DNA of 64,000 nt. Source: Fimbriimonadaceae bacterium. GTDB lineage: Bacteria; Armatimonadota; Fimbriimonadia; Fimbriimonadales; Fimbriimonadaceae. The stretch covers positions 1 through 64,000 of the forward strand of contig CP075365.1 of NCBI GenBank assembly GCA_019454125.1. The letters run 5' to 3'. A model generated the notes under the pieces. That model had not been told where the DNA came from, did not search any database, and was given only the letters and a program-made list of their open reading frames with translations. Made by a program: the position numbers and the translations under genes. This document shows, piece after piece, positions 16,835 through 59,448 of this stretch; position 1 is the stretch's first letter; every line of letters begins with the position of its first letter.

Positions 16835-17044
16835 TCAAGTTTCGGGGACGTCTTCCGGCCGGGTCTGGCCCGCGGCCTCGTTCTCGGCCAGGATCTGGTC
16901 GTAGATCTCCTTTCGGTGGACGGCCACGTTGCGCGGCGCTTTGATGCCCAGCCGCACCTGTTCGCCCCGGACTTCCAGGACGACGACTTCGACGCCGTCG
17001 CCTATCACGATGCTCTGGTTTACTTTTCTGGTCAGGACCAGCAT
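16835..17044 (-). CDS. csrA: Carbon storage regulator CsrA
   Basis: This 69-residue RNA-binding protein starts [20 protein letters not shown]. The core includes [20 protein letters not shown], the region that contacts GGA motifs in mRNA leaders. It follows fliW, its protein antagonist, at the end of the flagellar operon. In other bacteria FliW and flagellin partition CsrA to time flagellin translation; the same arrangement is implied here. Confidence 0.96.
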
Positions 17045-17084
17045 GGACGCGCCCTCCTTGGCACCCCGTTCGAGCTCTGCCCGG

Positions 17085-17540
17085 TCAGGCCGCTTCCTTC
17101 AACCGTCTGAAGGCCGGGTAGCGCACCGGGTACGCGTCCGACTCCAAAACGATCTGGCGCGCCTTCCCGGTCGCGGTATTGATGACGATGGGCCCCGCGA
17201 GGTTCAACGTCATCCCGTTTGGATCGCCCGGCGGGATCGTGCAAACAGTATAGACGAGTTCCGTCGGTCCGTCCACTGGTTCACGGCCCAGCACCTTAAG
17301 AATCTGCGTGCTGTATCCGGGCTGATAGATCTCCGGGTCGACGGTCAAGACGGCGAAACCCGGCTCTTCCACGCTTTGCAGCCAGAAAAAGGGGCCGGCA
17401 GAGCGGTGCGGGATCACCAGGAACTGGCGCATCGCCGGAAGCCCGACGAGCCCTTCCGGAAACTCCAAGACATCGACCGGATCAAATTCGATCTCGCCGA
17501 AGCGGGGCGTGTCCAACGTCACGGTTTGGTGCTGCGTCAT
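17085..17540 (-). CDS. fliW: Flagellar assembly factor FliW
   Basis: The 151-residue protein carries [19 protein letters not shown], then [19 protein letters not shown] and [20 protein letters not shown], the FliW signatures. It binds flagellin and, when free, blocks CsrA. The start overlaps the flgL stop by 4 bases, and csrA follows 40 bases later. Confidence 0.95.
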
Positions 17541-18418
17541 CTTAAAAAGTCCATGAGGCTGAGCTGGTTCGCCCGGGAGGTGACCTGGAGCGCAGCCTGG
17601 TAGGCGGTCTGGGCCTGGGTCATCTGGGTGACGGCCTCGGTGAAGTCGACTTCCGAAAGCTCGGAGATCCTCTTCTTCGTCTCGTTGATGAGGCGGGAGT
17701 TGTTCTCCCGCAACGAGGCCACCGTCTGCAACTTGTTGCCGATGTTGCCGCGCATCACGAGCGACTCCTGGTGGCGGTCGGCCAAGGCTTGGACGTCGAG
17801 GTCGCCGAGCCGGGACTGGTTCGCGCCCAGTAGGTCGTTCTTCAGGTTCTCAAGGTCGCTGTACGCTCCCTGGAAAAATGTGTCGGCCTGCGTGTTCACC
17901 TGGGTCTGCTCGCCGATCCGCGTCTCGATCAGGATCGGGTTCTGGTCGCCGTTGTAGTCCAGCCCGGGCGGGTTCACGGTGAAGGGCTTCGTCGTGGTCT
18001 TCTGACCGGCAAAGATGTACTGGCCGTTCGAGCCCCGGCTGTTGGCGAGGTCCACGAGCCGGCGTTGGATCTCGGCGACCTCGGTCGCCATCCCGTCCCG
18101 CGCTTCCTTTGTTGTCGCGGCGTTCGCCCCGTTCAAGGCGAGCGTCCGAGCCCGCTGGAGCATCGTGCCCACCTCGCTCAAGGTGTTTTCCGTATTGCCG
18201 AGATAGTCGTCGGCGGCGAGGAGGTTCTTGTCGAGACGCTCGATGCGGCTCAGCAAAGTCTGCGCCGGGAGGAGCGACTGCATCGCGGCCGGGTTGTCGC
18301 TCGGCCGCTGGAAGGCCTTGCCCGTCGCCACCTGTTGCTGGGCGCTGATCCAGCGCGAATAGCTTTGCTGGATCTGCTTTGTCAGGGACTGGTACTGGTA
18401 TCCGGTGCTAATCCTCAT
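17537..18418 (-). CDS. flgL: Flagellar hook-filament junction protein FlgL
   Basis: The flagellin-like N-terminal coil (MRISTGYQYQSLTKQIQQSY, QVATGKAFQRPSDNP) and C-terminal coil ([18 protein letters not shown]) flank a middle domain, 293 residues in all. FlgL forms the second junction ring under the filament. It lies just after flgK, as in most flagellar clusters. Confidence 0.95.
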   Translation of the reverse strand: MRISTGYQYQSLTKQIQQSYSRWISAQQQVATGKAFQRPSDNPAAMQSLLPAQTLLSRIERLDKNLLAADDYLGNTENTLSEVGTMLQRARTLALNGANAATTKEARDGMATEVAEIQRRLVDLANSRGSNGQYIFAGQKTTTKPFTVNPPGLDYNGDQNPILIETRIGEQTQVNTQADTFFQGAYSDLENLKNDLLGANQSRLGDLDVQALADRHQESLVMRGNIGNKLQTVASLRENNSRLINETKKRISELSEVDFTEAVTQMTQAQTAYQAALQVTSRANQLSLMDFLR

Positions 18419-18426
18419 TCTTCACC

Positions 18427-19806
18427 TCACCTGCGGACCATGCTGATCAGGTCTTCCGCGACCTGGTCGAAAATCGTGAGCGCCCGAGCGGCCGCTTGGT
18501 AGCTCCGCTGAAACTTGACCATGTCCGCCATCTCATCGTCGATGGAAACGCCGGAAACCGCCTGGATCCGGTTCTGGATCTGTTCGTTGACCGACCGCTC
18601 GGTGTCGGCGAGCGAACTGTAGTAGTTGACCTCGCCGGAGAGCTTGCTGACGTTGTCCCGCCAGTAGTCGTGGAACGTGACGTTCCCCAGGCCGGTGATG
18701 GCCGTGTCGCGAAGTCCGGCCAGGGCTTGGGCCATCGCGCCGTCGCCCGGATTGGCGGTCATGCCCGCGGCGATGTTCTTGACGTCACTCTTGATCTCGG
18801 TCGTCAGGTCGAAGTCCGCAGCCCCGGTCTGGGGGACTCCGTCGTTGAAGAAGTTGACCCCGGTCGCGCCATAGGAGTTGTAACCGGTGGAGTGGATGCC
18901 GTTGATCTGCGACTTGAGCGAGTTCGCCAGACCGTCCAGAGTGGCCTTCTGGTTCTCATAGGCGGCGTGGGTCGAGAGGAGGCCCGCCAAGGTGCCGCCC
19001 CGCACCACGTAGTCGGCGCTGCCATCGTTCACGGTCCCGGTCGCGGAATTGTAGGTTTGGGGGAAGGGCCGGGAGCCGGCGCTGTCCACCAACGTATAGC
19101 CCGCCGCATAGACCGCGATCGAGCCGTCTGGGAAGGTCGAGGTGGAGACGTTGACCAGTCCCGCGAGGTCTCGGATCGCTTGGTCGCGCTGGTCCAGGAG
19201 GTCGCCGTTCTCGCCGTCCTGGCCCAAGGAGGCCCGCACCGCCTTGTTCAGCGTGTCGATCTTCTTGGCGAGCAGGTCGACCTGCTGAATAGCCGTCTTG
19301 ATCTGCTGGTGGGTGTCGATCTGCTGGCTCTGGAGGTCGCCATAGGAGTTGCGGATCCGGTCCGCCAGGACTTGCCCCGCCCCTCTCACGTCCACCCGGG
19401 CGGCCGTGTCCGAAGGGTTTGCGGCCAGGCCGCTCCAAGAATCGAAGAACTTGTCGAGGGCGCCTGAGATCGAACCCGCCCCAAGCTCGCTATAGATCTC
19501 CTCGATGCGGCCGAGGCCGCCCGAAGTCGTCTCAAGCCGGGCCAGTTCGGCCGTGCTCTTGTTTGCGGAGACCTCCAGATAGTTGTCGCGGATACGCTGG
19601 ATGCCCACGACGCTCACGCCCTGCCCCACGGCCCGCCAGCCCTTCTCAAAGAACTTGATCGGTTCGTTCATGGCAAAGGTGACACGCTGCCGGGAATAAC
19701 CCGGGGTGTTCACGTTCGCAAGGTTGTGGCCCGACGTCGCGAGCGCCCTTTGGAAGCTCCGAAGGGCCTGGCTCGCAACATTGAGTCCACCAAATGGGCC
19801 GGCCAT
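18427..19806 (-). CDS. flgK: Flagellar hook-associated protein FlgK
   Basis: The rod/hook N-terminal motif ALATSGHNLANVNTPGYSRQ and the C-terminal coil IDDEMADMVKFQRSYQAAAR are present. The intact 459-residue length is normal for a small FlgK. The ending DLISMVRR is family-like. It forms the first hook-filament junction. It lies between its chaperone flgN and flgL. Confidence 0.96.
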   Translation of the reverse strand: MAGPFGGLNVASQALRSFQRALATSGHNLANVNTPGYSRQRVTFAMNEPIKFFEKGWRAVGQGVSVVGIQRIRDNYLEVSANKSTAELARLETTSGGLGRIEEIYSELGAGSISGALDKFFDSWSGLAANPSDTAARVDVRGAGQVLADRIRNSYGDLQSQQIDTHQQIKTAIQQVDLLAKKIDTLNKAVRASLGQDGENGDLLDQRDQAIRDLAGLVNVSTSTFPDGSIAVYAAGYTLVDSAGSRPFPQTYNSATGTVNDGSADYVVRGGTLAGLLSTHAAYENQKATLDGLANSLKSQINGIHSTGYNSYGATGVNFFNDGVPQTGAADFDLTTEIKSDVKNIAAGMTANPGDGAMAQALAGLRDTAITGLGNVTFHDYWRDNVSKLSGEVNYYSSLADTERSVNEQIQNRIQAVSGVSIDDEMADMVKFQRSYQAAARALTIFDQVAEDLISMVRR

Positions 19807-19821
19807 GGCGTAATTGTCGGC

Positions 19822-20310
19822 TCAGGCCGCCTGGTTCATAACGACGTTTGTCACAGGTTCGGGCGGTCCGTACGGCCCTTGCTGTTCCGCGGCCGCCTTG
19901 GCGATCAAGGCGGTGGTGCCGTTGAAGTACTCGATCTCGTTCTCGATGAGGGCACGGTTCTTCGCCACGACGTCTTGAACGTTCCGGGCCACGACGATGA
20001 CGCGGTTCGCGACGGCTTGGAGGCTCATGCCTTCGGCGCGGTCAAGTCCCTGCACCAAGCTTCGAAGGTTGGGCTCGCGACCCAGTTCTTCGGCCAGCTC
20101 TTTGGCACAGGCAAGCGCACGGGCATCGATATCCTCCATCAGCGCCATCATCGCGTCCAGTTCGGGCTGGATGCGGGCGACCCGGTCCGGATCGCGCAAG
20201 GTGAGCGCCGCGGTCTGTTCGTGGAGGGATCGGAGCAGCCTCTCAGAGGTGCTGAGCCAATCCCACCAGAGGGCCTCGAGGGCCTTGGTCTTCTTTGTGG
20301 TCGTGGTCAT
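19822..20310 (-). CDS. flgN: FlgN-type chaperone for FlgK/FlgL
   Basis: The 162-residue all-helical protein has repeated leucine/charge heptads (LEALWWDWLSTSERLLRSL, LAEELGREPNLRSLVQGLD) and a conserved-type C-terminal region (VVAKNRALIENEIEYFNG). The fold and the position just before flgK support FlgN, which holds the junction proteins for export. It overlaps flgJ by 4 bases. Confidence 0.82.
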   Translation of the reverse strand: MTTTTKKTKALEALWWDWLSTSERLLRSLHEQTAALTLRDPDRVARIQPELDAMMALMEDIDARALACAKELAEELGREPNLRSLVQGLDRAEGMSLQAVANRVIVVARNVQDVVAKNRALIENEIEYFNGTTALIAKAAAEQQGPYGPPEPVTNVVMNQAA

Positions 20311-20798
20311 GGGTTGTTCTCGGTGGTCGGGGTCGGGCGGCTTGCGGCCGATTTGACGATCTGTCCGGCGGTTTGCACGAACACCATCTTCGCCATGCCG
20401 AGGCCGGGCGCCCGTTTGGCGACCGCGTCGGCGACGGCTTGGTTCATGAGGTCTCGGGCGAAGTCGCCCATCGGCGACTTGTCCTCGACAAACTTGACTT
20501 TCTGGGCCTGTTCCAGCAAGCCCTTGATGAAGAACCCTTCCAGGCCCTCGGCGGCGCTCTGGAGCTTCACCAGGTCACGGCGGGTCGTCTCCGAAAGCTT
20601 CGAAAGGTCGAGCTTGCCGCCCGAGGCAACCTGCTCCACCGCCTTCGCCGCACCGACGATCGGGGACCGGGAAACCTGCCCCAGCCAGCCGTTCAGCGCC
20701 GTCTCCAGCGACTGGCGGAAATCGCTGCGGAGCTCAGGGCCCGAATTCCGGGCCGCACCGATCGGGCCGCTCAGCGTGCCTTCTATGCGCGTCGTCAT
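20307..20798 (-). CDS. flgJ: FlgJ rod-binding protein (no muramidase domain)
   Basis: The rod-binding domain is visible as LVKLQSAAEGLEGFFIKGLL, then PMGDFARDLMNQAVADAVAK and GLGMAKMVFVQ. The 163 residues contain no glucosaminidase domain, so wall opening for the rod must use another enzyme; a lytic transglycosylase is encoded at 37.4 kb, but a link is speculative. It overlaps its neighbours by 4 bases on both sides. Confidence 0.88.
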   Translation of the reverse strand: MTTRIEGTLSGPIGAARNSGPELRSDFRQSLETALNGWLGQVSRSPIVGAAKAVEQVASGGKLDLSKLSETTRRDLVKLQSAAEGLEGFFIKGLLEQAQKVKFVEDKSPMGDFARDLMNQAVADAVAKRAPGLGMAKMVFVQTAGQIVKSAASRPTPTTENNP

Positions 20799-22036
20799 TG
20801 GACTTCGATCCTCGCTTTCAGGGCGCCCTGCTTTTGCAAGGCCATCAAGATGGCGATGACGTCCCGGGCGGAAACTTTCAGGGCCTGGAAGATCCGCGAG
20901 AGGTCTTCCAAAGTGGCGCCGGGCGGCACGAGCTGGACTTGGGCCCTCGTCTCGCCCGCATCCACCTGCGGCACTGCGATGACGACCGTCTCCCCCTGGG
21001 AGAACGGGGCGGGCTGGCTGATCACGTAGTCCGTCGTGATGCGGACTTCGAAAGAGCCGTGGGCGATGACTGCCGGGCCGAGCCGCACGTTGCCGCCGAC
21101 CACGATGGTGCCGGTCCGCTCGTTCACCACGACGCTGGCCGGCGTGTTCGCCAGGACTTCGGTCGCCTCGACCTGCTGCGCCACGAACGTCGGGCTCTCC
21201 CCGCTCGGCGCCACGATCTTCACCGTCGCCCCGTCCAAGGCCGTCACTTGATAGCCCGGGAACTGGTCGCGGAGGGTGGCCGCCGTTCGTTCCGCCGTCG
21301 TAAAGTCCGGCTTGTCCAGGTCGAAGTACATCACCCCCCCTTCGAAGACGAATTGGGTCGGGACGCTCTTCTCGACCGTCGCCCCGCCCGAGATCACGCC
21401 GACCGTCGGGTGGTTCTTCCGGCTGCCGGAACCCCCGGAAGAGGCGTCGAAGCCGCCGATGCTCACGGCACCGTAGCCCACCGCCATCACCGTGTCCGCG
21501 TCCGTCATGGAGGCGAGCGTCGTCGGCAGGAGCACGCCGCCTTGGAGGCTCTTGGCGTCGCCGTTCGAACTCACCGTAAGGTCGACCCGCGAGCCGGGCG
21601 CGATGAAGGGCGGAAGCTCCGCCGTCACCATAACGGTGGCGATGTTCTTGCCTTTCACTTGAGCCTGGTCCACGATCGTGCCCCAGCGGCTTAAGTAGTT
21701 ACTGATAAGCGTCTGCGTCCAGGGCGTGGACTTGGTGTCGCCCGTCCCGGCCAAGCCGACGACCAAGCCGATGCCCGTGAGGACGTTGCGCCGGGCGCCG
21801 CGGAACTGGCCGATATCGCCGAGCCGCACCCGGACGCCTTCCAGTTCCGCTTCGCGGACCGCTTGGCGCTCGGCCTTCTCCTTCTCCTCGAGGAGCTTCT
21901 TCACGTCGGCGATCTGTTGCGGGGTCAAGGGCGGGACCTGCCCTGTCGACTGCTGTCCTTGCGCGGCGGCGCCTTGCCCGATAGCCAGGGCACTGAGCAC
22001 GATGAGCGCAAGGGTCGTGGTGGTTCGCGTTTTCAT
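20795..22036 (-). CDS. flgI: Flagellar P-ring protein FlgI
   Basis: The signal peptide (LALIVLSALAIGQGAAAQG) is followed by the FlgI core: VRLGDIGQFRGARRNVLTGI, GLVVGLAGTGDTK and VVNERTGTIVVGGNVRLGPA. The C-terminus (LVPPGATLEDLSRIFQALKV) is typical. An insert after the signal peptide forms a helix (QQIADVKKLLEEKEKAERQA) that most FlgI lack. The protein forms the periplasmic bushing of the rod. Confidence 0.96.
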   Translation of the reverse strand: MKTRTTTTLALIVLSALAIGQGAAAQGQQSTGQVPPLTPQQIADVKKLLEEKEKAERQAVREAELEGVRVRLGDIGQFRGARRNVLTGIGLVVGLAGTGDTKSTPWTQTLISNYLSRWGTIVDQAQVKGKNIATVMVTAELPPFIAPGSRVDLTVSSNGDAKSLQGGVLLPTTLASMTDADTVMAVGYGAVSIGGFDASSGGSGSRKNHPTVGVISGGATVEKSVPTQFVFEGGVMYFDLDKPDFTTAERTAATLRDQFPGYQVTALDGATVKIVAPSGESPTFVAQQVEATEVLANTPASVVVNERTGTIVVGGNVRLGPAVIAHGSFEVRITTDYVISQPAPFSQGETVVIAVPQVDAGETRAQVQLVPPGATLEDLSRIFQALKVSARDVIAILMALQKQGALKARIEVQ

Positions 22037-22041
22037 AAGCC

Positions 22042-22641
22042 TTAGAAGAAGATGTCGAGAATCGTGGTGATCAAACCTTTGCGTTGGCGGTCTTGGATCA
22101 TTCCCTTGCCTTCCATGCGGATTTCCGCGTTGGCGATCTGGGTGCTCTTGACCGTGTTGTCCGGCTTGATGTCATAGGGCCGGATCTCGCCGGAAAGAAC
22201 GAAGGTCTGAGTCTCCTTGTTCGTGACGAGCGTCCGCTTTCCTTCGATCAAGAGGTTGCCGTTCGGCAAGACTTGCTTGACGAGCACGCTCATCCGGGTC
22301 TGCATCGTCCCCGTCTGGTTCGTCTTGCCGTCCCCCTTGACGCTGCTGCTCGCCGAAGCGGACAACGGCCGGAAGAGCCGGTTCAAAATGTTGTTCACGA
22401 AGCTGAAGCTGAACGACGTCTTATCGTTCTTGGTCGCCTCGGTACTGGCCGTGTAGTTCGCCGTGTTCTGCTCGTCGACGATGACGGTGAGGAGGTCGCC
22501 TACCCTCCGGGCCACTCGGTCCAGATAAGGGTTCTGGTAGCTCGGAGTCACAAGCGAACCCGGGTTCGTCTTTTCCTCGGTCTGCTGCGCGCCCGCCAAA
22601 GTGGCCAGCAAGGCCGCAGCCAGGAAGAGAGCCTGCCTCAC
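22042..22641 (-). CDS. flgH: Flagellar L-ring protein FlgH, without lipobox
   Basis: The core signatures ANYTASTEATKNDKTSF, GTMQTRMSVLVKQVLPNGNL and LSGEIRPYDIKPDNTV fit FlgH. The GTG at 22641 overlaps the flgA stop (GTGA), so I use it instead of a longer upstream frame. The 199-residue product starts RQALFLAAALLATLAGAQQ, a type I signal peptide with no cysteine. E. coli FlgH is a lipoprotein, so outer-membrane anchoring must differ. Its presence means a diderm envelope. Confidence 0.93.
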   Translation of the reverse strand: MRQALFLAAALLATLAGAQQTEEKTNPGSLVTPSYQNPYLDRVARRVGDLLTVIVDEQNTANYTASTEATKNDKTSFSFSFVNNILNRLFRPLSASASSSVKGDGKTNQTGTMQTRMSVLVKQVLPNGNLLIEGKRTLVTNKETQTFVLSGEIRPYDIKPDNTVKSTQIANAEIRMEGKGMIQDRQRKGLITTILDIFF

Positions 22642-23822
22642 GCCTGCACCTCCACGACGCCGTCCGCGGCAAGCTTGCCGACAAGCAAGGCGTTCGTGTC
22701 TTGGGTGCGCACGGTGACCTGGCCGGTCTTGGCGTCCGCCTGTACGACCGTGCACTTGGTCGTCACTTGCACCCCGCCCGCGTTCACCCGGACGTTCACG
22801 ATCGTGCCCGGGCGCAGGTCGACGATCGGGGCCGTGTTCTTCAAGCGAACCACACGCGAATTGAAACGGCGGCCGTCGACATAGACGGCGACCGTGACCG
22901 AGCCCTCCGAACGGCCAAGTTCCACGCCTTCCACGACGAGGCGCAGCGACCCGGTCGGCACGCTCATTTCAACGTCGTCCTTGGCCGCCGTCCAAGACCC
23001 CGCCTGCTTCGCCGCGACCGCGTCCAAGGCGGCCTTAAGAAACATGTCGTGCGTCAGTTTTTGGCCCTTGCGGACCACCTTGCCGCGCGTGGGGCCGATC
23101 AACCTGAGCTTGTCCACCTTGAGACCCGCCAGCCGCAGTCGGCTGACCACCCAGGTGCGGTCGACCGTGAACTTCACGCCGAAAGCGGGGGTCTTCCCCA
23201 GCTCGGCCGCGCTCAACCTCGGGGCCATGTCTGCCTTGGCGTAGACGGTCGCGATCTGGCCGAGCGTATAAGTCTCTGTGTCGAGCTCGGTCTCCGGGTT
23301 CAAGGCGACCTCGATGCCGCCCTCGGCCAGGTAGGCCGGGTCGGGAAGGACTTCCGGTAGGGCGTCCGCCGTCGCCGGTTCGGCGGGCGGGGCGGTCACG
23401 ACGGTCGGCGCGACCGTCTCTTGCGGCTTCGGCGTGGGGCCGGACGAGAGCTTGGCGTCGCCGACCACCAACCTCAGCGGGGCTGCTATCGGCACCGTTC
23501 GGGGCCGTTCGGGCGACCGGTAAAACCCGTTCTCGTCAGGGCTCGGGGCCCCGTTAAAGACGTACGCCTGGAGCCGGCCGGCGACGACGCCCTTACTCGT
23601 GACAGTGCCGTCCTCCGCGATGGAAAAGTCGTCTCCGACGAAGACTGCCGGAAGGAGGGCGTCGCCACCCACGGTGGAGAGCCGGCCCTCGCGGGAGCAG
23701 AGGGTCGCGGTGCGCACATAGGCCACGCGCCCTTCGTGCAAGACCTTCAGCAGGAAGCCGCCCTCGGTCGCGACGGCGACCTGGTTTGGACCACTAAGCA
23801 ACCCAAGCAGTGCCAGCATCAT
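22638..23822 (-). CDS. flgA: P-ring chaperone FlgA with an unusual N-terminal half
   Basis: The C-terminal half (about 200-394) is FlgA: a first domain with LRLAGLKVDKLRLIGPTRGK, then the SAF-type region IVDLRPGTIVNVRVNAGGVQ, TVRTQDTNALLVGKLAADG. The N-terminal ~110 residues contain DDFSIAEDGTVTSKGVVAGR and LQAYVFN, a pattern that matches the middle of FlgF/FlgG rod proteins (IxxDGTV...GxIxLxxF). A Pro/Thr-rich linker (about 125-155) separates the halves. Usual FlgA is 140-240 residues, so this 394-residue form is a fusion or extension. Confidence 0.9.
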   Translation of the reverse strand: MMLALLGLLSGPNQVAVATEGGFLLKVLHEGRVAYVRTATLCSREGRLSTVGGDALLPAVFVGDDFSIAEDGTVTSKGVVAGRLQAYVFNGAPSPDENGFYRSPERPRTVPIAAPLRLVVGDAKLSSGPTPKPQETVAPTVVTAPPAEPATADALPEVLPDPAYLAEGGIEVALNPETELDTETYTLGQIATVYAKADMAPRLSAAELGKTPAFGVKFTVDRTWVVSRLRLAGLKVDKLRLIGPTRGKVVRKGQKLTHDMFLKAALDAVAAKQAGSWTAAKDDVEMSVPTGSLRLVVEGVELGRSEGSVTVAVYVDGRRFNSRVVRLKNTAPIVDLRPGTIVNVRVNAGGVQVTTKCTVVQADAKTGQVTVRTQDTNALLVGKLAADGVVEVQA

Positions 23823-23828
23823 TCTTCG

Positions 23829-24617
23829 TTACCTCTTCATCCCGTTCAGGATGCTGAGCATGTCGTCGGCGGTCTGGATCGCCTTTGAGTTGATCTCATA
23901 GGAGCGTTGCGCCGTGATCATGCGGACCATTTCTTCGACAACCTGCACGTTCGACCCTTCCAGCGCGCCCTGGTAGATCGTGCCCGCCCCCTGGTCGCCC
24001 GGGTTCAAAGCGGTCGGGTCGCCCGACCCTCCGCCTGCGCGGAAGAGGTTCTGCCCGACCCGGGTCAGACCGGCCGGGTTCGGGAAAACGGCAAGCTGCA
24101 GCACGCCGATCTCGGTGGGTTCTTGGGAGCCCGGGAGGATGGCCGTGATCTGCCCGTTGCCGGCGATCGTGACCGCGCTCGCCCCGGTCGGAACGTTGAC
24201 GGGCGGCTCGACAAGGTAGCCGTCGACCGTGACCAGGTTGCCGCTGGCGTCGGTCTTAAAGCTGCCGTCCCGTGTGTAGAGCACCGTGCCGTCCGGGTGC
24301 GTCACCTGGAAGAAGCCGTTGCCGTTGATGGCCAAGTCGTAGGGGTTGCCCGTACTCTGGATCGAGCCCAGGGAGAGCGAGGTCGAGTTGCCCGAGAAGC
24401 GGGAGCCCAGGCCGATCTGGGCGGGGCCCGGAAGGGTCGATTCCCCGCCGGTCGGGGCGCCGGAAGCCCGGATCGTCTGGTACATGACGTCCTGGAACTC
24501 TGCCCTTTGGCCCTTGAATCCGTAGGTGTTTGTGTTCGCGAGGTTGTTCGCGATAACGTCCAAGTTCGTCTGCTGGGCGACCATGCCGGTGCCTGCAGTG
24601 TTCAGTGCTCTCATCAT
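23829..24617 (-). CDS. flgG: Flagellar distal rod protein FlgG
   Basis: The 262 residues begin MMRALNTAGTGMVAQQTNLD and VIANNLANTNTYGFKGQRAE, and end EEMVRMITAQRSYEINSKAI, all typical of FlgG. GNGFFQVTHPDGTVLYTRDG is the core. It follows flgF and precedes flgA with 6 bases between, so one operon. Confidence 0.96.
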   Translation of the reverse strand: MMRALNTAGTGMVAQQTNLDVIANNLANTNTYGFKGQRAEFQDVMYQTIRASGAPTGGESTLPGPAQIGLGSRFSGNSTSLSLGSIQSTGNPYDLAINGNGFFQVTHPDGTVLYTRDGSFKTDASGNLVTVDGYLVEPPVNVPTGASAVTIAGNGQITAILPGSQEPTEIGVLQLAVFPNPAGLTRVGQNLFRAGGGSGDPTALNPGDQGAGTIYQGALEGSNVQVVEEMVRMITAQRSYEINSKAIQTADDMLSILNGMKR

Positions 24618-24721
24618 TGGCGGCGCGTTCCTTTCAGTTGCTTTGCGCCTCTTCCGGTCTCCCGCCTGCCGCTTTCTGCGGCGGGGCGGCTCGCTCCTGC
24701 TTCCAAAAAGCAGTCCAGCGT

Positions 24722-25447
24722 TTAGCGACCTTGGAGGCTCTGGATCAGTCGGTCAGTGCTTGCGTCCTGGCTCTGCACGCTGCGTTGGGCCAGTTCGAAA
24801 GCTCGGTTGAGTCGGATCATCGCGATCATCTCGCTGACAACGTTCACGTTGCTCATTTCGAGCGTGCGTGGGAGGAGTTCGGGCGCGGCGATAGGCCGCG
24901 CGTCGTTCGATTCGAAGAGTCCAAAACCGGCCTTGGCGAAGCTCCCGGAGAAGACGCCGATCTTGCCGACGACATGGTCCTGCACCTTGACGGAGCCGTC
25001 CGCCTCGATCGAAGGCTCGCCCCGCGGCAAAGTGATCGGCTGGCGGTTCTCGTCCAAGACGAGGCGTCCCTGTTGGTCGGTGAGCTGCCGGGCCGTGTTG
25101 ATGCTGAAGCTGCCGTCGCGGGTGAAGCGGACGCCTTGCGGGGTTTGCACCGCGAAGGCTCCGTTGCCACTCTTGATGGCGACGTCGAGCGGGTTGCCCG
25201 TCATCGTCTCGGGGCCGGTGCTGAAATCGGTCGCGATGCCTTTGGCGACCGCGCCCGCCCCGATGCTGCCGAGAAGGGCGCCCGATCCACCGTCCGCCCG
25301 TAAGTAGCGGACGAGTCCGTCGTCGAACGAGGCCACGTCGCGCTTGTAGCCGACGGTCGCCGCGTTTGCCAGGTTATGGGAAACCACGTCCAGCCATTGC
25401 TGGGCGCTTTCCATCGCCGTGGCCGCGGAATAAACACCCCTTTGCAT
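24722..25447 (-). CDS. flgF: Flagellar rod protein FlgF
   Basis: This is a second FlgG-like protein of 241 residues: MQRGVYSAATAMESAQQWLD, VVSHNLANAATVGYKRD, GAFAVQTPQGVRFTRDGSF and the ending NVNVVSEMIAMIRLNRAFEL. Its place as the first gene before flgG and its shorter length suggest FlgF (proximal rod). It is the 5' gene of the minus-strand flagellar operon; the 104-base gap to flgG holds nothing I recognise. Confidence 0.9.
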   Translation of the reverse strand: MQRGVYSAATAMESAQQWLDVVSHNLANAATVGYKRDVASFDDGLVRYLRADGGSGALLGSIGAGAVAKGIATDFSTGPETMTGNPLDVAIKSGNGAFAVQTPQGVRFTRDGSFSINTARQLTDQQGRLVLDENRQPITLPRGEPSIEADGSVKVQDHVVGKIGVFSGSFAKAGFGLFESNDARPIAAPELLPRTLEMSNVNVVSEMIAMIRLNRAFELAQRSVQSQDASTDRLIQSLQGR

Positions 25448-39603: not shown

Positions 39604-39963
39604 TTACCAGTAAAGGCCCAGCTCTAGGCGGATGTGTTCCGGGATTCGGTCGATCGTGAAGGGCGGGTCCCAGACCAGTTCGAGGTTCGCACTTCGGACG
39701 CCCGGTGTGCTCCGGACGGCCTGCTCGACCTCGCCGGGAAGCGTCCCGGCAACGGGACAGGCCGGGCTCGTCAAGGTCATCTTGATGTCGACCGTGGCAT
39801 CGTCGTGGACCATCACCGAATAGATCAACCCGAGGTCGTAGACGTTGACCGGGATTTCCGGGTCGTAGACCTGGCGGATAGATTCGATGACGTCCCCTTC
39901 GAGGATCGACTTCGCGATCGGGTTGAGCGGGGGTGCCTTCGTGGGCGGGATTTTTTCCGGCAC
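39604..39963 (-). CDS. sufT: SufT-like MIP18/DUF59 Fe-S maturation protein
   Basis: The DUF59 core is VYDPEIPVNVYDLGLIYSVM, then MTLTSPACPVAGTLPGEVEQ with the conserved Cys, and WDPPFTIDRIPEHIRLELG. Family members help Fe-S protein maturation. I chose GTG at 39963 because TACTAT lies 8 bases upstream; a TTG at 39972 would overlap that box. The A-type carrier follows directly. Confidence 0.9.
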   Translation of the reverse strand: MPEKIPPTKAPPLNPIAKSILEGDVIESIRQVYDPEIPVNVYDLGLIYSVMVHDDATVDIKMTLTSPACPVAGTLPGEVEQAVRSTPGVRSANLELVWDPPFTIDRIPEHIRLELGLYW

Positions 39964-39971
39964 TCCTTCCA

Positions 39972-39977
39972 ATAGTA
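39972..39977 (-). promoter_or_regulatory. -10 box 8 bases before sufT
   Basis: Minus-strand TACTAT, eight bases (with GGAAGGA), then GTG. It borders the candidate plus-strand RNA, so the two transcripts would start back to back. Confidence 0.4.
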
Positions 39978-39990
39978 CGCCCCGGGCGAA

Positions 39991-40172
39991 GCGTTCTCAC
40001 ACCGGCCAGGCCAAACCCGAGCAAAAAGACCTTGTGCAACCCTGTTGCCGCCGATTCGTGCTCCCGAGAATCCTTGCAGAGCTACCGAAAAGGCAGCCAC
40101 GAGACTTGCCGAGGGCAAGACGCAAGCGAGATAGGGTTCGGGCGACCTCCAACGAGAGGCGCCCATTTTTTT
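39991..40172 (+). ncRNA. Candidate rod-shaped small RNA (6S-like fold)
   Basis: The sufT-lipB gap holds no gene, yet the plus strand ends in a hairpin plus seven T. Five short helices nest in order: 39991-39998 with 40154-40162, 40014-40018 with 40134-40138, 40031-40036 with 40121-40126, 40045-40049 with 40114-40118, and 40056-40060 with 40098-40102. They form one long interrupted rod with an asymmetric central loop, the general shape of 6S RNA. No SRP, tmRNA or RNase P signature is seen. The promoter was not found with certainty (AATAGT at 39971-39976 is near). Confidence 0.4.
40140..40172 (+). terminator. Rho-independent terminator on the plus strand
   Basis: GGGCGACCTC pairs with GAGGCGCCC (one bulge) around a short loop, and ATTTTTTT follows at 40165-40172. 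No plus-strand protein gene ends here, and the minus strand lacks a T run after the stem. Confidence 0.65.
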
Positions 40173-40185
40173 CGCCACGGCACGC

Positions 40186-40827
40186 CTAGAAGAAGACACT
40201 CTGGAAGGCGTCGCGGAGCGGGGCCTTGTAGTCTTCCACCGTCACCCTGCGGCCCGTCGCCTCGGTTAAGGAGGTGACCCCGTAACCCGGGATGCCACAC
40301 GGCACGATGAGGTCGAAGAGGGAAAGATCGTTCTCGACATTGACCGCGATCCCGTGGGTGCTGACCCATCTTCGCACCTTCACGCCGATCGCAGCGATCT
40401 TGCGGGGCTCTCCCTCCACCTGCACCCAAACCCCGGTGTGCGGCGGGAACCGGTACCCCTCGAGGCCATAGGCGGCCAAGCTGCGGATGACAACCTCCTC
40501 GAGGTCGCGAAGCCACTTGTGCAGGTCACGCCCATGCTGGGCGACGTCGAAGACGGGATAGGCGACAAGCTGCCCGGGGCCGTGGAAGGTGACGTCCCCT
40601 CCCCGGTCCACTCGCTCGACCGCAATGCCCCTACGGGCGAACTCTTGCGGCGGGACGAGCAGATTCTCCAAGTGGTGACTGGCCCCGAGGGTCACGACCG
40701 GGTCGTGCTCGACCAGGAAGAGCGTGTCTTGCCGGAAGGGCTCCGCCGCCCGCCGTTGCTCTTCCCAGGCCGCAAGAAACCCCATGCGGCCGAGGTCCAC
40801 GACGTGCAGGGCCGTTGCGTCAGCCAA
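40186..40827 (-). CDS. lipB: Octanoyl-[ACP]:protein N-octanoyltransferase LipB
   Basis: LipB moves octanoyl from ACP to lipoyl domains. The motif VDRGGDVTFHGPGQLVAYPV, the lysine in RKIAAIGVKVRRWVSTHG and the catalytic Cys in FDLIVPCGIPGYGVTSL are present, 213 residues. It overlaps lon by 8 bases. Downstream LipA would use Fe-S clusters, in line with the nearby SUF genes. Confidence 0.96.
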   Translation of the reverse strand: MADATALHVVDLGRMGFLAAWEEQRRAAEPFRQDTLFLVEHDPVVTLGASHHLENLLVPPQEFARRGIAVERVDRGGDVTFHGPGQLVAYPVFDVAQHGRDLHKWLRDLEEVVIRSLAAYGLEGYRFPPHTGVWVQVEGEPRKIAAIGVKVRRWVSTHGIAVNVENDLSLFDLIVPCGIPGYGVTSLTEATGRRVTVEDYKAPLRDAFQSVFF

Positions 40828-57166: not shown

Positions 57167-57751
57167 GTGATCGACGACACCCAGCTCAGAACCGGCCCCC
57201 GGACGCAAGAAGAGTTCGAGGCGATGCGCAAAGGGACGGAGCGACGGGCGTTCTCGGTCGCACTGAACCTCACCCGGAACCCGGTTGAAGCCGAGGACCT
57301 CGTCCAAGACACCTATCTCAAGGCGTGGCGCGGGTTCGACTCCTATATGCCGGGGCGCCCGTTCCTAAACTGGCTGCTCCGCATCATGCAGCGGGCCTAC
57401 CTTGACCAGCGCCGCCGCGAGAACCCAATCCGCAAGGCCGACTCCCTCAATGCGATGGTCAGCCCGAACGACGGGGAGGTGCAGGAGATCCCGATCGCCG
57501 ACGAGGCCCGAAACGCGGAAGAAATTCTCCTTATGGAGGAGTTCTCGGCCGAGCTGCGGAACTCGCTCACCGAGCTCCCGACCGTATACCGCAGCGCGAT
57601 CGTGCTGTGCGACGTCGAGGGCCTGAGCTACGAGGAGATCGCCGAGCGCCAAAAGACGACGATCGGCACCGTGCGCTCCCGGATCCACCGGGGCCGCAAG
57701 CTCCTTAGGGAAATCGTCCAGAAGAAGGGGCTGACGATCCCCGTCCGATAA
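57167..57751 (+). CDS. ECF-type RNA polymerase sigma factor
   Basis: Region 2 (AFSVALNLTRNPVEAEDLVQ, DTYLKAWRGFDSYMPGRPFL) and region 4 (LTELPTVYRSAIVLCDVEGL, SYEEIAERQKTTIGTVRSRI) are complete, 194 residues. No anti-sigma gene of the usual membrane type is next to it. Three small genes follow: one is YjfB-like, one is membrane-bound, and one is a zinc ribbon that could act as a ZAS-like factor. Confidence 0.92.
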   Translation: MIDDTQLRTGPRTQEEFEAMRKGTERRAFSVALNLTRNPVEAEDLVQDTYLKAWRGFDSYMPGRPFLNWLLRIMQRAYLDQRRRENPIRKADSLNAMVSPNDGEVQEIPIADEARNAEEILLMEEFSAELRNSLTELPTVYRSAIVLCDVEGLSYEEIAERQKTTIGTVRSRIHRGRKLLREIVQKKGLTIPVR

Positions 57752-57783
57752 AGACGCCCGGCCAGGCGACCGACAATCCCCCT

Positions 57784-58701: not shown

Positions 58702-59448
58702 TTAGAGTTCGGCATGCGTCCTGACCTTCTTTAGGCCGATCAAGTGGGAATACTGGTCGGCGTCGTCAATATCTGTCCCAATTTCCGGGTACCGGGAGAC
58801 AATCCCCCTCACCCTTGTCCCCATGAACCGGCCAATGGCTGTCTCCAAGGCCGATATGGGCAGGGTCCCAGGGATTATCTTCCCGATCACGACGCGTGCC
58901 AACAGGCCGATCCCGACCATTCCCGCAAGCTTTAGCGGGCTCTTTCGGGCAAGATAGGCGGCCTCGAGCTTGGGCAGCGCGCCTCGGAACGCCTCCGTCC
59001 GCAGCACCGCGAGGTTGCCTCCCGTAAAACGGCCCTCGCGCACGGCAAGGGTCGTCCGCTTCAGCCCCGGGTACGCCCGCTCGCACTCCTCCATCGGCAC
59101 GATCGGGTAGTTGAACCCTGCGGCAAGGTCGCACCGGGCGACGAAGTCGGCGACGGCCTCCTTCGAAAGGTCGGGGAGGTCGCTGGTCGCGAGGAGCAGA
59201 CTGTCGGTCTGGACCGCCTCCAGTCCTGCCTTTACACTCCCCAGGAAAGTGGCCGCAGACGGCACGCGCTCAATCCCGGAGACCTCCGGCCCGCCGACTT
59301 GAACGATCCTGCCCACCCCGCCCACCGCACCAAGGACGATATCGATGAATCGGCGTCCCTCGTACGGCACTTCCGCCCGCCATTCGCAGCCGGTGAGGTC
59401 CCGGAACCGTTGGTCCGTCTTTCCGCCCGCCAAGACTATGACGTCCAA
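58702..59448 (-). CDS. MobA-like NTP transferase domain protein
   Basis: The start MDVIVLAGGKTDQRF gives the nucleotide-binding LAGG loop. LLLATSDLPDLSKEAVADFV holds the metal-binding SDLP, and FTGGNLAVLRTEAFRG fits the family. The C-terminus (VRGIVSRYPEIGTDIDDADQ) resembles GlmU/MobA-like endings. I chose TTG at 59448 because GGAAGGAGAG lies just upstream. The sugar or cofactor substrate is unknown. It overlaps ispE by 13 bases. Confidence 0.78.
   Translation of the reverse strand: MDVIVLAGGKTDQRFRDLTGCEWRAEVPYEGRRFIDIVLGAVGGVGRIVQVGGPEVSGIERVPSAATFLGSVKAGLEAVQTDSLLLATSDLPDLSKEAVADFVARCDLAAGFNYPIVPMEECERAYPGLKRTTLAVREGRFTGGNLAVLRTEAFRGALPKLEAAYLARKSPLKLAGMVGIGLLARVVIGKIIPGTLPISALETAIGRFMGTRVRGIVSRYPEIGTDIDDADQYSHLIGLKKVRTHAEL

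Follow-up and report, generated by a model that had tools for sequence, protein, structure and literature searches.

In E. coli, the sRNAs that depend on sigma-28 include UhpU, MotR, FliX, and FlgO (PMC10578931). Campylobacter, a genus that also uses CsrA-FliW, has CjNC1 and CjNC4, which are free-standing, sigma-28-dependent ncRNAs (PMC4626219). The FliA consensus of Bdellovibrio, TTAAG-N16-CCGATA (PMC3627812), has the same gap of 16 as the promoter element discussed below. A literature search found no paper that joins Fimbriimonas with small RNAs, no description of an sRNA from the Armatimonadota, and none of a 6S RNA from the Armatimonadetes. Judged from its sequence and from that of its relatives, the locus described here, which lies in a genome of the Fimbriimonadaceae, can be read with reasonable, though not high, probability as encoding a free-standing, trans-acting sRNA of about 95 nt that would belong to the flagellar regulon under sigma-28.

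The window, that is, the whole stretch of DNA analyzed, comprises 64,000 nucleotides (contig CP075365.1, positions 1 to 64,000), and its features are collected in Table 1. The plus strand of the sufT-lipB interval contains no convincing gene. A preliminary description had drawn a rod of some 170 bases over positions 39991-40172 and had likened its shape to that of 6S RNA. RNAfold indeed stacks helices over these 182 bases, with a value of -59.5 kcal/mol. Relative to dinucleotide shuffles, z for this fold is -1.4, with 18 of 200 shuffles being equally stable, so that its stability does not exceed that expected by chance, and for the structure of the minus strand over the same stretch z is -0.5. 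When the DNA is compared with that of 60 relatives, the alignment starts only at query base 122 or 123 (window ~40101 onward), the same genus included; the 5' half of the rod is not conserved, even within the genus. Because conservation is confined to the 3' part, the rod merges unconserved upstream DNA and a promoter-like box, which sits inside it, with what is predicted to be the real RNA, a conserved unit of about half the length that had been claimed.

A 6S RNA at this locus is now extremely improbable. A rod can be drawn by RNAfold, and a diverged 6S RNA could be missed by the Rfam model, which finds none in the family: a search with RF00013 returned nothing from the window's own genome or from 41 family genomes. 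Against this stand the architecture and the promoter. The conserved unit of ~95 nt has three separate hairpins, rather than the conserved single rod of ~180 nt with a central bubble that defines 6S RNA; the promoter box, and with it the predicted start, falls within the rod; the 5' half is unconserved, as noted; and in Rfam as a whole, no family matches the stretch, either at gathering thresholds or at E values up to 10. What survives of the preliminary description is an independent plus-strand small RNA with a terminator, which is backed by conservation, covariation, and promoter spacing. The GC-rich hairpin followed by seven Ts on the gene-free strand is present (40140-40172). Hairpin 1 and the terminator covary in relatives; the 5' half of the proposed rod is not kept.

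Table 1. Features of the sRNA locus and of the surrounding window (positions are those of the window).
Feature	Position	Strand	Basis or remark
Intergenic stretch examined	39991-40172	+	between sufT and lipB, both on the minus strand
sufT-like Fe-S assembly gene	39604..39972	-	divergent neighbor; PF01883, 69.4 bits
lipB	40186..40827	-	convergent neighbor; PF21948, 147.6 bits
Expected -35 position, TGTTG	40043..40047	+	N16 upstream of CCGA; degenerate, 2 of 5 bases match family TAAAG
Putative -10 box CCGAGAAT, sigma-28 type	40064..40071	+	aligned copies, spacing test; nearest relatives have CCGACAAT
Predicted sRNA, ~94 nt (about 95)	40079..40172	+	covariance-model match 40081-40171
Hairpin 1 (GCU-A-CC / GG-C-AGC)	40081..40097	+	both-sided changes in 6 of 6 pairs, 21 copies
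Conserved core ACTTGCCGAGGGCAAGACGCAAGCGAGATAGGG	40104..40136	+	36-base identity with a second genus of the family (DNA comparison, 60 relatives); pattern matches
Hairpin 2 (CUUGCC-GAG-GGCAAG)	40105..40119	+	folds; invariant in 7 species
Hairpin 2' (alternative: same 5' arm with GCAAG)	GCAAG at 40122-40126	+	folds
Two GGG boxes of the core	40113-40115 and 40134-40136	+	
Terminator hairpin	40140..40164	+	sequence, fold, covariation
T7 tract	40166..40172	+	sequence
Flagellar cluster: csrA, fliW, flgL, flgK, flgI, two flgF/G-type genes	16835-25447	-	

Covariance models of the sRNA, built in three rounds, detect a copy in 22 of 291 Armatimonadota genomes. All of these belong to the Fimbriimonadaceae, where they are spread over 9 genera with one copy each, and the E values reach down to 1e-15 to 1e-24. 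Among 21 aligned copies, 94.0% of the pairing cells are paired, vs 70.3% after shuffling and at most 48% with slid partners, and the covariation score is 0.51 vs 0.15 (shuffled) and <= 0.12 (slid); such counts are inflated by fitting the alignment to the structure of the model, but hairpin 1 is also plain in single sequences. Common to the copies related to that of the window are the box CCGACAAT, a hairpin that varies, the core ACTTGCCNNNGGCAAGANGCAAGCGAGATAGGGT, and a terminator hairpin with its T tract. In other genera the core differs and typically reads ATCCAGGGAAAACAGAAGCTGAAAGAGGGTAT, with the order of the parts unchanged: hairpin 1, an AGGG box that is usually in or beside hairpin 2, GGGTA, and the terminator. 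A hairpin and a T tract end every confirmed copy. Together, these sequence comparisons show a homologous structured RNA family with a covarying hairpin, conserved GGG boxes, and a predicted intrinsic terminator. The family is undescribed and absent from Rfam; the kind of RNA is already known.

Weak model matches without the conserved core were excluded (L029, L031-L033, L073-L077, and L079-L082). Those numbered L029, L031-L033, L073-L075, and L079-L082 resemble chance terminators or coding DNA. L076 and L077, at 1501-1578 in two species of genus g21, have a hairpin-1-like stem and a terminator and no core; they are possibly a reduced relative. A pattern match in Rhodospirillales (L018) lacks the flanks and the terminator and looks like chance, and the viral contigs searched gave no match.

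That the scattered copies are homologous is supported by their overlapping synteny: sufT is a divergent neighbor both in the window and in genome G025, sufC/sufD lie beside the copy in G104, and fabI is downstream in others. In genera g2, g5, g8, g15, and g25, and in one g16 species (G083), the element is directly 5' of fabI on the same strand, where it could be a cis-acting leader or attenuator of that gene. This function is very unlikely. In the window, fabI is 170 kb away, and in other g16 species, too, the element does not precede fabI. Moreover, fabI has its own CATAAT box and no plus-strand gene follows the element in the window, which argues against a cis role. Throughout the family (L034-L063), a CATAAT-like box lies a few bases before the ATG of fabI, suggesting a leaderless mRNA.

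Along the RNA, a covarying hairpin is followed by a hairpin with the AGGG box, a conserved linker with the second GGG box, the terminator, and the T7 tract. The transcript would start 7-10 nt past the -10 box CCGANNAT and end at the T tract. In the folds, the GGG linker is mostly unpaired. In place of the CUUGC/GCAAG stem of hairpin 2', other genera have UUCAGC/GCUGAA and GUCAGC/GCUGAC. A speculative and rather doubtful extension is that the arm CUUGC pairs with either repeat, GGCAAG or GCAAG, so as to toggle the first GGG box between a hidden and an exposed state in this lineage-specific, putative sigma-28 sRNA. If this were true, the dual-pairing constraint would account for the 33-36 bases that are near-invariant in seven species.

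The copies in the family have a TAAAG-N16-CCGA pair upstream. When the match to TAAAG and CCGA is summed for the upstream regions of 20 non-redundant copies, it amounts to 150 at gap 16, whereas other gaps give 118.8 +/- 3.4 (z = 9.3) and 200 shuffles of these regions give 113.6 +/- 2.9 with a maximum of 124. The peak at gap 16 appears in each subgroup alone (genus g30, z = 6.0; the rest, z = 7.0), and the same gap is found upstream of the family gene for FlgM anti-sigma-28 (L128). TAAAG-N15-16-CCGATA followed by T occurs 45 times in 41 family genomes vs 22 for the reversed pattern, about four overlapping matches being counted twice; among the genes downstream of such sites are those for a prepilin and for FlgM anti-sigma-28 (42.3 bits against a cut-off of 25). 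The predicted TAAAG-N16-CCGA element is of the sigma-28 (FliA/WhiG) promoter type. For the copy in the window itself, sigma-28 control is deduced from the relatives and the -10 box, because its -35 is poor, and this degenerate -35 is the main weakness of the sigma-28 reading. A generic sigma-70 promoter scan gave no match.

Alternatively, the trans-acting sRNA of this family could be transcribed with the housekeeping sigma and be unconnected with flagella, in which case CCGACAAT would supply a -10 of the sequence GACAAT. The copy in the window and several in g1, g8, and g16 do keep GACAAT or GAGAAT despite a degenerate -35, and the family fabI genes likewise carry -10 sequences of the CATAAT type without an evident -35. 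However, the gap-16 peak persists when genus g30 is left out, and the CCGA ahead of the AT-rich part is kept, although a housekeeping -10 does not need it. This alternative is rather unlikely, and sigma-28 is the preferred factor.

The genome encodes a sigma of the FliA/WhiG type (TIGR02479, 236.5 bits, cut-off 189.6) and also Hfq (98.3 bits). Within the family, the FliA/WhiG model is matched in 85 of 85 genomes searched, 80 of them over the cut-off, and most family genomes with FliA have no detected copy of the sRNA. Therefore, the RNA is either dispensable for some sigma-28 regulons or diverged past the model.

Sequences resembling this promoter also occur elsewhere. In the window, an ECF sigma gene is directly followed by a perfect TAAAG-N16-CCGACAAT site at 57749-57780 (plus strand). 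The 57-codon gene downstream of this site bears a weak likeness to YjfB motility proteins that stays under the Pfam cut-off (E = 0.002). A second site, TAAAG-N16-CCGA at 58733 (minus strand), is upstream of a 78-codon gene without a Pfam family. A TAAAG-N16-CCGAGAA sequence lies 322 bases 5' of the genome's own fliA/whiG (L134, minus strand from 9453; G000:C1 near 1063452), possibly reflecting autoregulation.

In the favored reading, sigma-28 would transcribe the sRNA, transcription would stop at the RNA's own terminator, and Hfq would hold or stabilize the product by its U-tail. The unpaired GGG (AGGG) boxes would then pair with mRNAs, a pairing that may couple the expression of some flagellar or non-flagellar genes to the state of flagellum assembly. 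Of the traits of sigma-28 sRNAs, the promoter is present at the level of the family (the copy in the window being good only at -10), and the genome has the sigma-28 factor and flagellar genes. Of the traits of Hfq-dependent sRNAs, the T7 tail, the Hfq gene, and the mostly unpaired linker are present; a target search in six genomes for sequences complementary to the conserved linker showed no enrichment relative to the reversed pattern (44 vs 41 in G000, the others similar).

The same boxes might serve to sequester a protein, for example CsrA, instead of pairing with mRNAs, which we regard as quite improbable. The GGG box is repeated, in genus g30 one of the two lies in the loop of a hairpin, and both csrA and fliW are present in the window. 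However, CsrA binding requires GGA. The copy in the window has no GGA at all, most copies have 0-2, and the relatives range from 0 to 3; a CsrA sponge of the CsrB/RsmZ type, with its several loop GGA motifs, was rejected on these counts. The favored reading remains an sRNA that would act on mRNAs.

The work provides a testable new RNA family together with its covariance model and the promoter class and regulon inferred for it. It also suggests that sRNAs controlled by sigma-28 exist far from the Proteobacteria and Campylobacter. Like 6S RNA (RF00013), the Fimbriimonadaceae RNA is terminator-ended and can be drawn as a rod, but it differs in length, conserved architecture, and covariance model. 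With the attack-phase sRNAs and merRNA of Bdellovibrio (PMC3627812), it would share a restriction to one lineage, the N16 gap, and a programme dominated by FliA; unlike merRNA, which contains a c-di-GMP riboswitch, it matches no Rfam riboswitch. CjNC1 and CjNC4 are paralogous, with 37/44 nt shared, whereas the Fimbriimonadaceae RNA is single-copy and has three hairpins; the targets of the Campylobacter RNAs rest on prediction and a reporter, and the RNA described here is without a supported target. The sigma-28 sRNAs of E. coli resemble it, as proposed, in being of the Hfq type, in acting on mRNAs in trans, and in having expression tied to FliA, a tie that for the Fimbriimonadaceae is a predicted one; kinship in sequence with the E. 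coli RNAs would not be expected. Unlike those sRNAs, which are derived from UTRs, the Fimbriimonadaceae RNA would have its own promoter and its own terminator between genes.
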